Assembly: GCA_017398125.1 (NCBI GenBank)
Contig: JAFQHE010000068.1
Location: forward strand, 1-35,267
Source of the DNA: Bacteroidales bacterium
Lineage (GTDB): Bacteria > Bacteroidota > Bacteroidia > Bacteroidales > UBA932
Reading direction: 5' to 3'
Length of the DNA stretch: 35,267 bases
The position numbers and the translations under genes are program-made. Shown here piece by piece: positions 13,034 to 30,561 of the stretch. The first letter of the stretch is position 1, and each line of letters begins with the position of its first letter. The notes below the pieces were generated by a model. It saw only the letters and a program-made list of their open reading frames with translations. It did not search any database and was not told the origin of the DNA.

Positions 13034-13429
13034 ATGAATCTTACTTATAAATTCAGCAGAGTAACAAAGGTCGCTGTTCCAACAAGAGAGAATATGGTTG
13101 ATGACCATTTTGGACATTGTGACCACTATACTATTTTTACTATAGAGAATAATAAAGTTGTTGCTAAAGAGGATTATCCGTCACCTCAGGGATGTGGATG
13201 CAAATCTGGGATTGCTCCTGTATTGCATAATATGGGCATAGAGGTCATGTTGGCAGGAAGTATGGGGCAAGGTGCAACTAATGTATTGACCGCTAATGGA
13301 ATAAAGGTAGTTAGAGGTTGTTCCGGTTGTGTGGATGTTCTTATTGAAGAGTATCTTGCGGGCAAAGTCTCTGATTCCGGTGAAGGATGCCACTCTCATG
13401 GTGAGGATGGACATGTTTGCCACGGATAG
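13034..13429 (+). CDS. NifX/NifB-type dinitrogenase iron-molybdenum cofactor family protein
   Basis: A 131-residue small soluble protein. After a short lead it has KVAVPTRENMVDDHFGHCDHYTIF (about 12-35), the standard opening of the NifX/NafY/MTH1175-like fold; then QGCGCKSGIAPVLHNMGIEVMLAG, GQGATNVL and GIKVVRGCSG, which complete the domain. Cysteines cluster at CGC and GCSGC, and the tail is His/Cys-rich (GCHSHGEDGHVCHG), a likely metal-binding extension. No nif genes for nitrogenase are nearby, so nitrogen fixation is not implied; many anaerobes carry such proteins with no known partner. It is transcribed alone from its own promoter. Confidence 0.85.
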   Translation: MNLTYKFSRVTKVAVPTRENMVDDHFGHCDHYTIFTIENNKVVAKEDYPSPQGCGCKSGIAPVLHNMGIEVMLAGSMGQGATNVLTANGIKVVRGCSGCVDVLIEEYLAGKVSDSGEGCHSHGEDGHVCHG

Positions 13430-25592: not shown

Positions 25593-25600
25593 TATATTTG
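25593..25600 (+). promoter_or_regulatory. -7 box of the NifU-like/GGGtGRT operon
   Basis: TATATTTG, exact match, 53 bases before the ATG at 25654. The -33 region is not clear: GTTG (25578-25581) is too close and TTTA (25563-25566) slightly too far. The AT-rich leader has no stable hairpin. Confidence 0.6.
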
Positions 25601-25653
25601 CGCCCGAACAAAATTTAGTTAAGGAAATTGATTAACGATTAAATAAATTTCTT

Positions 25654-26355
25654 ATGGTTTATTCACACGAAGTTCAACACATGTGTGTTGTAAAAAAAGG
25701 TCCTAACCACGGACCAGCACCTATTCCTGAAGAGGGCAAATGGGTGAGAAGCAAAGAGATCAAAGATATTTCAGGTTTGACTCACGGTATTGGCTGGTGC
25801 GCTCCTCAACAGGGTGCCTGCAAACTTACCCTAAATGTTAAAGAGGGTATTATCCAAGAGGCTTTGGTTGAGACAATCGGTTGTTCAGGTATGACCCACT
25901 CTGCTGCTATGGCATCTGAGATTCTTCCTGGCAAGACCATTCTTGAGGCATTGAACACAGACCTTGTTTGTGATGCCATCAACACTGCAATGAGAGAGTT
26001 GTTCCTTCAGATCGTTTACGGACGTACACAGTCTGCATTCTCAGAGGGCGGTCTTATCATTGGTGCAGGTCTTGAGGATTTGGGTAAAGGCCTAAGAAGC
26101 CAGGTTGGTACACTTTACGGTACTTTGGCTAAAGGTCCACGCTACCTTGAGATGGCTGAGGGCTACATCAAGACTTTGGCTCTTGACAAAAATGACGAGA
26201 TCTGCGGATACGAGTTTGTTCACATGGGCAAATTCATGGAGGAGATCAAAAAAGGCACAGATGCTAATGAGGCATTAAAGAAAGTTACCGGTACTTATGG
26301 CCGTTTCACTGCTGAGCAAGGTGCTGTAAAACACATTGACCCACGTAACGAATAA
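25654..26355 (+). CDS. NifU-like iron-sulfur cluster scaffold-type protein
   Basis: A 233-residue cytoplasmic protein related to the N-terminal (IscU-type) domain of NifU. Recognisable core: GWCAPQQGACKLTLNVKEG (Cys49, Cys56), ALVETIGCSGMTHSAAMASEI (Cys77, the IscU GCGSAxASSS equivalent) and NTDLVCDAIN (Cys106). The usual third IscU cysteine motif (HCSxLAE) is not there; after residue ~115 the protein runs into its own region (GRTQSAFSEGGLIIGAGLEDLGKG..) with Cys184. There is no Nfu or ferredoxin domain. Codon use strongly favours the set of highly expressed genes. It is followed 12 bases later by the GGGtGRT gene, so the two products probably work together. IscU-like cluster carriage is inferred, not shown. 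Confidence 0.85.
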   Translation: MVYSHEVQHMCVVKKGPNHGPAPIPEEGKWVRSKEIKDISGLTHGIGWCAPQQGACKLTLNVKEGIIQEALVETIGCSGMTHSAAMASEILPGKTILEALNTDLVCDAINTAMRELFLQIVYGRTQSAFSEGGLIIGAGLEDLGKGLRSQVGTLYGTLAKGPRYLEMAEGYIKTLALDKNDEICGYEFVHMGKFMEEIKKGTDANEALKKVTGTYGRFTAEQGAVKHIDPRNE

Positions 26356-26360
26356 GGAGG
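26356..26360 (+). promoter_or_regulatory. Strong Shine-Dalgarno site before the GGGtGRT gene
   Basis: GGAGG directly after the stop codon of the NifU-like gene, seven bases before ATG 26368. Most genes here have no such site, in keeping with Bacteroidota, so this one stands out. Confidence 0.7.
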
Positions 26361-26367
26361 AAAGAAA

Positions 26368-27381
26368 ATGGCTATTAGAGAAGTAAAATTTGAGAGCCAA
26401 GACCGTAGAATGGCTCAGATCAATGCGGTTTTGAATGCTAACGGCATTAAAAGTATAGAAGAGGCAAACGAGATTTGCGAGCAGTATGGTTTGGATCCTT
26501 ACAAAACTTGTGAGGAGACTCAGCCTATCTGTTTTGAGAATGCAAAATGGGCATATGTAGTTGGTGCTGCCATTGCTCTTAAGAAAGGTTGTGCAAATGC
26601 AGCTGATGCTGCTGAGGCTATCGGTTTGGGTCTACAGTCATTCTGTATCCCCGGTTCAGTTGCTGATGACAGAAAAGTTGGTCTTGGCCACGGTAACCTT
26701 GCTGCACGTCTATTGAGAGAGGAGACAAAATGTTTCGCTTTCTTGGCAGGTCACGAGTCATTCGCTGCAGCTGAGGGTGCAATCAAAATTGCAGCTAAAG
26801 CAGACAAAGTAAGAAAAGAGCCTCTACGTTGTATCCTTAACGGTTTGGGTAAAGATGCTGCTCAGATCATCTCAAGAATCAACGGCTTTACATATTGCCA
26901 GACTGAGTTTGACTATGCAACCGGTAAAGTTAAGGTTGTAAACAAGATTGCTTACTCAGACGGTCCTCGAGCAAAAGTTAACTGCTACGGTGCAGACGAT
27001 GTAAGAGAGGGTGTTGCAATTATGCACCTTGAGGGTGTTGACGTATCAATCACTGGTAACTCAACCAACCCAACACGCTTCCAGCATCCAGTTGCAGGTA
27101 CTTACAAGAAAGAGTGCATGGAGATGGGCAAGAAATATTTCTCAGTTGCATCAGGTGGCGGTACAGGCCGTACCCTTCACCCAGACAACATGGCTGCAGG
27201 TCCTGCATCATATGGTATGACCGACACAATGGGCCGTATGCACTCAGACGCTCAGTTTGCAGGTTCTTCATCAGTTCCTGCCCACGTTGAGATGATGGGC
27301 TTCCTTGGCATCGGTAACAACCCAATGGTAGGTGCTACTGTTGCTGTTGCTGTGGATGTTGCTACTGCATTGAGCAAATAA
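26368..27381 (+). CDS. GGGtGRT protein, function unknown
   Basis: A 337-residue cytoplasmic protein that I recognise by its namesake motif ASGGGTGRTLHPDNMAAGPA (GGGTGRT at 263-269). It has ten cysteines, spread over 37, 48, 55, 75, 93, 122, 155, 177, 206 and 250, many within helix-like Ala-rich segments (AIALKKGCANAADAAEAIG), and an extended Gly-rich C-terminus (MGFLGIGNNPMVGATVAVAVDVATAL). No signal peptide, no known catalytic motif. The family is known only as 'GGGtGRT protein' and its gene regularly follows a NifU-like gene; the biochemical role is not established. Cysteine content and partner suggest cluster binding or handling. Codon bias is extreme (GGT, GCT, AAC, CAC preferred), implying high expression. 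A strong terminator follows. Confidence 0.88.
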   Translation: MAIREVKFESQDRRMAQINAVLNANGIKSIEEANEICEQYGLDPYKTCEETQPICFENAKWAYVVGAAIALKKGCANAADAAEAIGLGLQSFCIPGSVADDRKVGLGHGNLAARLLREETKCFAFLAGHESFAAAEGAIKIAAKADKVRKEPLRCILNGLGKDAAQIISRINGFTYCQTEFDYATGKVKVVNKIAYSDGPRAKVNCYGADDVREGVAIMHLEGVDVSITGNSTNPTRFQHPVAGTYKKECMEMGKKYFSVASGGGTGRTLHPDNMAAGPASYGMTDTMGRMHSDAQFAGSSSVPAHVEMMGFLGIGNNPMVGATVAVAVDVATALSK

Positions 27382-27455
27382 CCGACGCCAAACCGAGCGC
27401 AATCAAGCTTGCTTGAATTGCCGAGGTGCGAAGGAGGAAAACAAGCGTAGCTCGT
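27381..27455 (+). repeat. Interspersed palindromic repeat, copy A
   Basis: About 75 bases starting in the GGGtGRT stop codon. Blocks: CCGAGCGCA, a hairpin TCAAGC-TT-GCTTGA inside GCAA...TTGC, TGCCGAGGTGCGAAGGA (27419-27435), GAAAA, then GCGTAGCT. A second copy in opposite orientation lies at 29571-29648. It looks like a REP-type element of the kind found between Bacteroidales genes. Confidence 0.75.
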
Positions 27456-27487
27456 TAATTGGCTTTATATCAGTTGATTATATAAAG

Positions 27488-27516
27488 GAGCTTTCCTACG
27501 GGGAGGCTCTTTTTTT
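27488..27516 (+). terminator. Terminator with UNCG-type tetraloop after the GGGtGRT gene
   Basis: GAGCTTTCC, loop TACG, GGGAGGCTC, then a run of seven T. The nine-pair stem includes two G-U pairs and closes on C(UACG)G, an extra-stable tetraloop. Confidence 0.9.
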
Positions 27517-27661
27517 GTGCTATTTCAGTTTTGTTGATGAAGGGGTGATGTAGAGATACATTGCCCCAATTTTTTTATAAAGTATTTTTCTGTCAATATT
27601 GGTTTTTAGGAATATTTGACGGAATTTTGCAGCCCAATACCCCAGAATGAAAAACATTTTC

Positions 27662-27899: not shown

Positions 27900-27941
27900 T
27901 AATCAATGCTGCTCTTGGGGTTGGGGTGGGTGTGTCTAATT

Positions 27942-29570: not shown

Positions 29571-29648
29571 AAAGCTGCGCTTTTTCTTCCTTCGCACCTC
29601 GGCATAGCTAAAGCAAACTTTGCTCTGCGCTCGGCTTGTCGTCAGTTA
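29571..29648 (-). repeat. Interspersed palindromic repeat, copy B (inverted)
   Basis: Read on the minus strand it matches copy A block by block: AACTGACGACAAG, CCGAGCGCA, a central AAAGTTTGCTTT hairpin, TGCCGAGGTGCGAAGGA (29588-29604, identical over 17 bases), GAAAA and GCGCAGCT. The two copies face each other across the two lipoprotein genes. Confidence 0.75.
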
Positions 29649-29933: not shown

Positions 29934-30233
29934 ATGAAATTGATTGAGAGAAATATGCAAACTATTATTGCTTTGTGCAAGATGTACAAGGTGAATAAAC
30001 TGTTTGTGTTTGGCTCAGTCCTTACTGAAAGATTCAATAAGGAGAGTGACATAGATCTGGTTGTTGATTTCAATAAAGAGGATATCACAGATTACTTTGA
30101 CAATTATTACAATCTGAAAGATTCCTTGCAGGAGGTTTTGGGGAGGGAGATAGATTTGCTTGAAGAGCAGTCTATCAGGAATCCGTATCTGAGAAAGAGT
30201 ATTGATTCTTCAAAAATGCTGATTTATGGATGA
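29934..30233 (+). CDS. mntA: MntA-type nucleotidyltransferase antitoxin
   Basis: A 99-residue minimal nucleotidyltransferase. The active-site signature G-S-X10-D-X-D is exact: Gly27-Ser28, ten residues, Asp39-Ile40-Asp41 (DIDLVVDF). A third acidic position is likely the Asp in GREIDLLEEQ. In the MntA-HepT (type VII) toxin-antitoxin systems this protein transfers AMP from ATP to a tyrosine of the HEPN toxin and so silences it. The gene overlaps hepT by eight bases. Start chosen at 29934; a second in-frame ATG at 29955 is possible but would remove only seven residues. Confidence 0.88.
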   Translation: MKLIERNMQTIIALCKMYKVNKLFVFGSVLTERFNKESDIDLVVDFNKEDITDYFDNYYNLKDSLQEVLGREIDLLEEQSIRNPYLRKSIDSSKMLIYG

Positions 30234-30561
30234 TGTGGTAAAGAAATCGTTGCATGATATTTTAACTGCAATTGAGGAAGTGGAAAGCTTTTTTGGCGAT
30301 AAACCAAAATTGTTTGAGGAGTTTTGTGGGAACATCTGCTTAAAAAGGGCCATAGAGCGCAATATTGAAATTATTGGAGAGGCAATGAGCCGCATTGTTA
30401 AGATTGATAATGATATTGCCATCACAAATTCCAGAAGAATAGTAGATGCAAGGAATTATATCATTCATGGTTATGACAGTCTTTCTCCCGATATCTTGTG
30501 GAGTATGGTCATTAACCATTTTCCTAGGTTAAGAGAAGAAGTGGAGAGTCTTTTGGATTAG
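30226..30561 (+). CDS. hepT: HepT-like HEPN-domain toxin (predicted ribonuclease)
   Basis: A 111-residue helical HEPN protein of the DUF86/HepT family. The RNase motif R-X4-H is present as Arg76-NYII-His81, followed by Gly82-Tyr83. The Tyr two residues after the His (RX4HXY) is the residue AMPylated by MntA in characterised systems. The rest shows the HEPN helices: IEEVESFF, FCGNICLKRAIERNIEIIGEAMSRI. Toxin action would be RNA cleavage in the cytoplasm, restrained by the product of the overlapping upstream gene. A palindrome follows (30615-30645). Confidence 0.9.
   Translation: MDDVVKKSLHDILTAIEEVESFFGDKPKLFEEFCGNICLKRAIERNIEIIGEAMSRIVKIDNDIAITNSRRIVDARNYIIHGYDSLSPDILWSMVINHFPRLREEVESLLD

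Follow-up and report, generated by a model that had tools for sequence, protein, structure and literature searches.

The Bacteroidales contig analysed here (JAFQHE010000068.1 of assembly GCA_017398125.1; 35,267 nucleotides, referred to as the window throughout) carries a compact operon in which a NifU-like gene (positions 25654-26355, + strand, 233 aa) is followed after a 12-base gap by a gene of the GGGtGRT family (26368-27381, + strand, 337 aa). We tentatively propose that the two genes encode a putative two-subunit iron-sulfur (Fe-S) protein, in which a U-type scaffold fold may have been turned into a fixed cluster holder. According to this proposal both genes would encode subunits of one abundant, iron-dependent complex of anaerobes. 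The NifU-like subunit would keep its Fe-S cluster rather than pass it on, and GGGtGRT would dock over the cluster through its glycine-rich segment, perhaps with Cys122, and would use it as a centre for catalysis or electron transfer. Translational coupling on a single mRNA would yield both subunits together, chiefly under ample iron.

We found that a NifU-like gene lies upstream of GGGtGRT at all 121 loci that could be assessed, where adjacency was defined as the same strand and a gap of less than 700 bases, with the ends of open reading frames (ORFs) extrapolated from the window proteins. Of these loci, 79 came from named genomes and 26 from sampling the window's order; sampling the phylum to which a Treponema genome belongs added 10, and the rest were five plasmid records (of ten that matched) and one viral contig. 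Assessable upstream DNA was lacking for L005, L093 and L135, which lie at contig ends, for the partial locus L109, and for six viral loci containing just the 3' part of GGGtGRT. The scan of the named genomes' contigs covered the best 80 of 593 relatives, all 83-99% identical, with Clostridia and archaea barely sampled. The median intergenic gap was 12, 15 and 8 bases for three large locus sets, and seven loci had gaps of 132-561 bases. Among 148 genomes of the window's order, GGGtGRT was detected in 29 and the NifU-like profile in 28, all within those 29; the profile was found in none of the 119 genomes without GGGtGRT. The single genome with GGGtGRT and no NifU-like match (G166) has a contig that ends 66 bases before GGGtGRT. 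An earlier note, made from the DNA of the window, had called the pair recurrent, and both the adjacency check and these co-occurrence counts bear this out. The evolutionary distances of the two proteins are also correlated (Pearson 0.78, 101 loci). At one locus (L109/L167, G233:C33:34763-35456) a NifU-like fragment (residues 1-66) is directly joined to a GGGtGRT fragment that starts from profile position 163, representing either a natural deletion or a misassembly.

The pair is patchy even among close kin, as can be seen from the counts: besides the 29 genomes of the order, GGGtGRT was present in 45 of 119 genomes (13 of 20 genera) of the window's own family, in 10 of 149 genomes of the phylum of the Treponema genome, and in just one of 148 genomes drawn evenly from the window's phylum, namely the window's own. 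When the two members of the pair were joined for a quick tree, the named treponemes clustered with Bacteroidales copies (support 96), and four copies from the Treponema-phylum sample branched elsewhere. This tree hints that the pair may have been transferred as a unit; a count of origins over its named rows is compatible with a single origin of the pair. In loci L131-L134, a branch from the Treponema-phylum sample, GGGtGRT is longer, at 345-348 aa, the N-domain and the region around residue 190 each carrying additional residues; the NifU-like gene is still adjacent. We also considered the pair as a stand-in for a missing IscU, which was rejected because both the pair and a strong NifU_N match are lacking from 116 of the 148 order genomes. 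Such a match was found in three of the 148, none of which has the pair.

Residues 38-127 of the modelled NifU-like protein adopt a U-type, IscU-like fold, the C-terminal half has no recognised family, and Cys49, Cys77 and Cys106 are invariant in 122 of 122 NifU-like rows; Cys56 is additionally present in the window's protein. All 122 NifU-like and 106 GGGtGRT rows used here have a complete ORF close to where the start is expected, and repeats are included (window/L001, L018/L122, L110/L124). When profiles were compared, Cys77 alone was in exact register with IscU, at its 'GC' cysteine, and the IscU Asp, two residues after the first cysteine, aligned to a gap. LPPxK and the HC pair (residues 96-115) were absent from all 122 rows. 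The four cysteines and the loss of the last IscU motif described in the earlier note were both confirmed. The protein scored 21.5 bits with PF01592 against a cut-off of 22 (22.3 by six-frame search), and scores with the NCBIfam equivalogs were far under their cut-offs (25.5/187.9, 20.7/192.4 and 18.2/92.5 bits). We conclude that, on sequence and model, the NifU-like subunit is a protein with an IscU-like fold and three invariant cysteines that lacks several IscU elements for cluster assembly and hand-over, and because these elements are absent the label 'cluster carrier' appears doubtful.

The earlier note had read the pair as a carrier with a client. In a dedicated form of this reading the NifU-like protein would be a U-type scaffold specialised in building or delivering a cluster, with GGGtGRT as its sole client or as an assembly factor replacing IscS. 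The IscU-like fold, the three invariant cysteines and the strict pairing stand from that reading, and the best profile match is A. fulgidus IscU, known with IscS and a [2Fe-2S] cluster according to the accessible text of PMC9769115. In the window's genome, moreover, NifU_N matches nothing but the NifU-like gene, which occurs there alongside SUF. What did not stand is the assembly and hand-over apparatus: Asp, HC pair and LPPxK are missing, no desulfurase gene was present among the window ORFs scanned, and the 116 order genomes with neither pair nor strong NifU_N match indicate that the pair is not a general scaffold. We regard a dedicated carrier as possible and rather doubtful. It is improbable that the NifU-like protein acts as a SufU, in zinc-dependent sulfur transfer, with GGGtGRT as the enzyme that accepts the sulfur via Cys122, given that SufU models score far under their cut-off (18.2 against 92.5 bits), that no sulfur-transfer gene was seen among the scanned window ORFs, and that the pair is reportedly under iron control (see below).

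The GGGtGRT protein is a full-length member of PF14057 (633.7 bits against a cut-off of 27, covering profile positions 1-326 of 327), and no solved structure matching it by sequence was found. The GGGTGRT signature occupies residues 263-269, each conserved to at least 99% in the 106 rows, and lies within SGGGTGRTLHPDN (residues 262-274; codons at 27151-27189, + strand), which opens the most conserved segment (263-319). Overall, 177 of the 337 positions are conserved to at least 99%. When the window's genes were compared with L117, L118, L120 and L121 (plus L119 for the NifU-like gene), fourfold sites differed by 0.47-0.85 and second codon positions by 0.14-0.18. We conclude from this far greater divergence at fourfold sites that the constraint on the encoded sequences is strong.

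The ten cysteines counted in the earlier note are indeed present in the window's GGGtGRT; however, they do not behave as a conserved set, as Cys122 alone is invariant (106/106 rows). The others are kept in 105 (C206), 104 (C37 and C93), 95 (C55), 82 (C48) and 78 (C75) rows, and the least kept in 54 (C155), 35 (C250) and 4 (C177). The Vibrio GGGtGRT, which lies outside the 106 rows and was read separately, retains C37, C93, C122 and C206 and has Ala at the C55 position. Because only Cys122 is kept in every row, GGGtGRT alone has no invariant four-cysteine site. The model (predicted template modelling score 0.79) shows a helical N-domain (residues 10-116) and a Rossmann-like core from residue 118, with generic structural matches. 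Its low-confidence residues are mostly conserved ones (55 of 62, compared with 122 of 275 others). The unplaced conserved stretch fits a segment that would become ordered by a partner or ligand; invariant columns, which give the predictor nothing to use, could also be the cause of the low confidence there. We conclude that GGGtGRT is, as modelled, a separate alpha/beta protein with one invariant cysteine that is never apart from its partner at assessable loci.

Foldseek repeatedly returned the Ni,Fe carbon monoxide dehydrogenase CODH-II across most of the GGGtGRT model (best E 0.034), which, along with the succession of a helical domain and a Rossmann-like core, would agree with GGGtGRT being a remote relative of the CODH/hybrid cluster protein (HCP; prismane) fold and working as such an enzyme. 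However, the root mean square deviation from CODH-II is ~18 A with a template modelling score of 0.25, and PFK, universal-stress and SIS folds score equally well or better. Comparison with 30 HCP sequences by hhalign gave a probability of 0.9% over 27 columns, and a Pfam scan of GGGtGRT returned no PF03063 match. Nor does PF03063 co-occur with the pair in the order (12 of 29 genomes with GGGtGRT, 53 of 119 others), and we consider such a relationship very improbable.

A Shine-Dalgarno-like GGAGG (26356-26360, + strand) abuts the stop codon of the NifU-like gene, 7 bases 5' of the GGGtGRT start codon. According to the accessible part of PMC9976891, ribosomes of Bacteroidia fail at recognising Shine-Dalgarno sites, with strong sites reported at rpsU, rpsR and certain further ribosomal genes. 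We found AGGAG or GGAGG just upstream of GGGtGRT at 73 of 83 Bacteroidota loci, compared with 15 of 349 flanking ORFs when these were started at the first ATG, or 30 of 349 when any ATG in the first 60 codons was counted. It was absent before all 21 other starts examined in the window, preceded 18 of 119 NifU-like genes, and was seen at no more than 12 of 106 other closely spaced co-directional neighbours, an upper bound since several of these matches look like the pair itself at loci without a called ORF. The site was present at 70 of 73 tight pairs (gap up to 40 bases) and at none of seven wide pairs. This comparison drew on 79 loci, two of them between the gap classes, and the wide class consists of four of these together with three loci without a called ORF that were read separately; start codons were called by script, and a few may be wrong. 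As the site follows tight spacing and is missing at wide gaps, the sequences suggest coupled reinitiation that would balance the two subunits. The three added wide-gap loci, which lack the site, strengthen the argument for coupling, and coupled reinitiation would in turn support a complex of both subunits.

Published data tie both genes to iron. In the iron stimulon table of PMC10434189, in so far as that paper is accessible, B. thetaiotaomicron BT0173-74 are listed at -12.8 to -11, and BT0174 is named as downregulated; that is, both genes are reported as 11-12.8-fold lower in iron-starved cells. For C. pasteurianum, the available text of PMC5395762 gives GGGtGRT as raised 7.1-fold at Fe+ in the early phase and 2.2-fold in the late one, and two spots of a NifU-related protein as 2.4- and 3.7-fold higher at Fe+ early. 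The accessible portion of PMC11204068 describes high in vivo expression of GGGtGRT in gut taxa that are distantly related. The earlier note had held the codon choice of the pair to be distinct. This is true of ATC (fraction 0.53/0.58 for NifU-like/GGGtGRT) and GGT (0.57/0.74), which exceed all 23 other window genes tested; however, GCT, AAC, CAC and GAC are individually not outstanding, and the effective number of codons (40.9/37.5) is similar in an M3 peptidase (38.8), an FKBP (40.9) and a short ORF (33.2) of the window. High expression, as the earlier note had supposed, is plausible from this part of the codon bias and from the reported expression. Our literature search, which left most subscription journals and all preprints outside its coverage, returned no study assigning an activity to the pair.

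The same observations bear on a different role, in which the abundant pair would be a store or buffer, loading iron and sulfide in cluster form while iron is abundant and releasing them when needed. The much higher levels with iron and the high expression, both as reported, would fit such a store, as would the accessory, patchy distribution and the lack of a pathway neighbour. We consider it unlikely, as the conservation of GGGtGRT, with many invariant polar residues among its 177 near-invariant positions, goes beyond the apparent need of a store, and GGGtGRT has no invariant cysteine-rich stretch.

Several results also weigh against our own proposal of a fixed cluster holder. The first IscU cysteine aligns to Gln53 and not to Cys49, and the models are of moderate confidence (predicted local distance difference test scores of 73 for NifU-like and 77 for GGGtGRT). 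The most conserved stretch of GGGtGRT (263-319), which is the proposed partner contact, is unplaced by the monomer model, and the low-confidence residues of the NifU-like protein show no excess of conservation (16 of 31, compared with 84 of 202 others). No third accompanying gene was found among 85 loci, the largest other flank family occurring in 17, so that no pathway is indicated. The pair was associated neither with HCP/CODH, as counted above, nor with FeFe hydrogenase (18 of 29 GGGtGRT genomes against 84 of 119 others). Finally, iron regulation is equally compatible with the rival readings.

A more specific form of the fixed-holder proposal would make the pair a putative new class of two-subunit Fe-S enzyme, which we raise as a speculative possibility. 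Here the ancient U-type fold, stripped of its assembly functions, would be a permanent cluster subunit, the three-cysteine cluster would be completed or capped by Cys122 of GGGtGRT, the Rossmann-like core and glycine-rich segment would bind the substrate, and Shine-Dalgarno-dependent coupling would keep the subunits in balance. The pair is present in many gut and rumen anaerobes, strongly conserved, iron-controlled and reportedly highly expressed; were it to act as an enzyme with a fixed cluster or as a store of Fe-S, current maps would lack an abundant part of the iron physiology of anaerobes. The question is now narrowed to residues that can be tested, Cys49, Cys77 and Cys106 of the NifU-like protein and Cys122 of GGGtGRT, and the coupled Shine-Dalgarno site poses a second, separate translation puzzle in Bacteroidota.

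The operon has the self-contained layout claimed for it, with both ORFs, the GGAGG-bearing gap, a promoter box and a terminator all in place. The Bacteroides-type -7 box, TATATTTG, lies at 25593-25600 (+ strand), 53 bases 5' of the NifU-like start codon. For 83 of 119 NifU-like genes the 200 bases upstream contain its motif, TAnnTTTG, a count in which a few loci occur twice (for example, the window is L001); mononucleotide shuffling gave a mean of 12.4 of 119 and a largest value of 21. The terminator hairpin (27484-27513, + strand) closes a C(UACG)G loop of the UNCG type and is followed by a T run, with a fold z of -4.8 for 27455-27520. In the window's genome (2.2 Mb, 95.6% complete) this operon supplies the single PF14057 and the single NifU_N match, and two SufB/D-type matches lie outside it. 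The earlier note had seen no iscS, suf, nif or ferredoxin gene nearby. The 30 window ORFs scanned contain no member of the iscS, suf or ferredoxin families; however, a NifX/NafY-type protein (PF02579, dinitrogenase iron-molybdenum cofactor family) is encoded at 13034-13429, 12 kb upstream of the pair.

The 3' end of the GGGtGRT gene (window equivalent 27300-27381) looks like an integration hotspot. A PHROG integrase lies within ~0.4 kb in all six viral loci with only the last part of GGGtGRT (L111-L116; five IMG/VR contigs), direct repeats of the GGGtGRT end (75-233 bases, 92-98% identical) occur at L010, L067, L070 and on the contig of L111/L115, and extra C-terminal fragments were found in 6 of the 45 GGGtGRT-bearing genomes of the window's family. 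At L067 (9088-9844), two ORFs that resemble a nucleotidyltransferase/HepT pair by eye lie between GGGtGRT and the repeat of its 3' end; a PHROGs search, the only family search made on them, gave no match. In the window itself a nucleotidyltransferase/HepT-like toxin-antitoxin pair is found at 29934-30561, 2.5 kb downstream of the operon. A 23-base element beside the operon terminator (27419-27441, + strand) recurs inverted, with 22 of 23 bases identical, at 29582-29604 (- strand), so that the two copies flank ORFs at 27906 and 29041; its 16-base core occurs twice against 0.00 expected, and it is possibly a repeat element.

The same two genes in the same order are known as BT0173-BT0174 of B. 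thetaiotaomicron and ULD52_RS06930/RS06935 of Collinsella (71-73% identity to both window proteins), annotated as PF14057 and 'nitrogen-fixing protein NifU'. We found no difference from these equally uncharacterised members that bears on function, and the window copy is an ordinary member of a widespread, uncharacterised pair already annotated elsewhere. The translation signal of GGGtGRT resembles that of rpsU and rpsR of Bacteroidia, as presented in the accessible part of PMC9976891, in being a conserved strong Shine-Dalgarno site in a phylum that rarely uses such sites; unlike theirs, it sits inside a short operon gap and is absent from seven of seven wide-spaced loci, and the accessible text of that paper makes no mention of the pair. 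With IscU, the NifU N-terminal domain (PF01592) and SufU, the NifU-like protein shares the fold of residues 38-127, and by profile and model Cys49/Cys56 and Cys106 lie near the two IscU cysteine sites other than that of Cys77. It differs from IscU and SufU in the three missing motifs, in ~100 extra C-terminal residues, and in being strictly paired with GGGtGRT and not adjoined by a desulfurase; it is also shorter by ~16 residues ahead of Cys106, with 86 residues of the model corresponding to a chain range of 102. In the A. fulgidus IscS-IscU complex, the cluster is ligated by a cysteine of the partner. This complex, with its [2Fe-2S] cluster (4eb5/4eb7), is what the NifU-like profile matches best by sequence (4eb5_C, E 9.4e-5). 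It is described in the available text of PMC9769115 as a U-fold protein holding a cluster within a two-protein complex. The partner of IscU there is a pyridoxal phosphate-dependent desulfurase, which GGGtGRT does not resemble.
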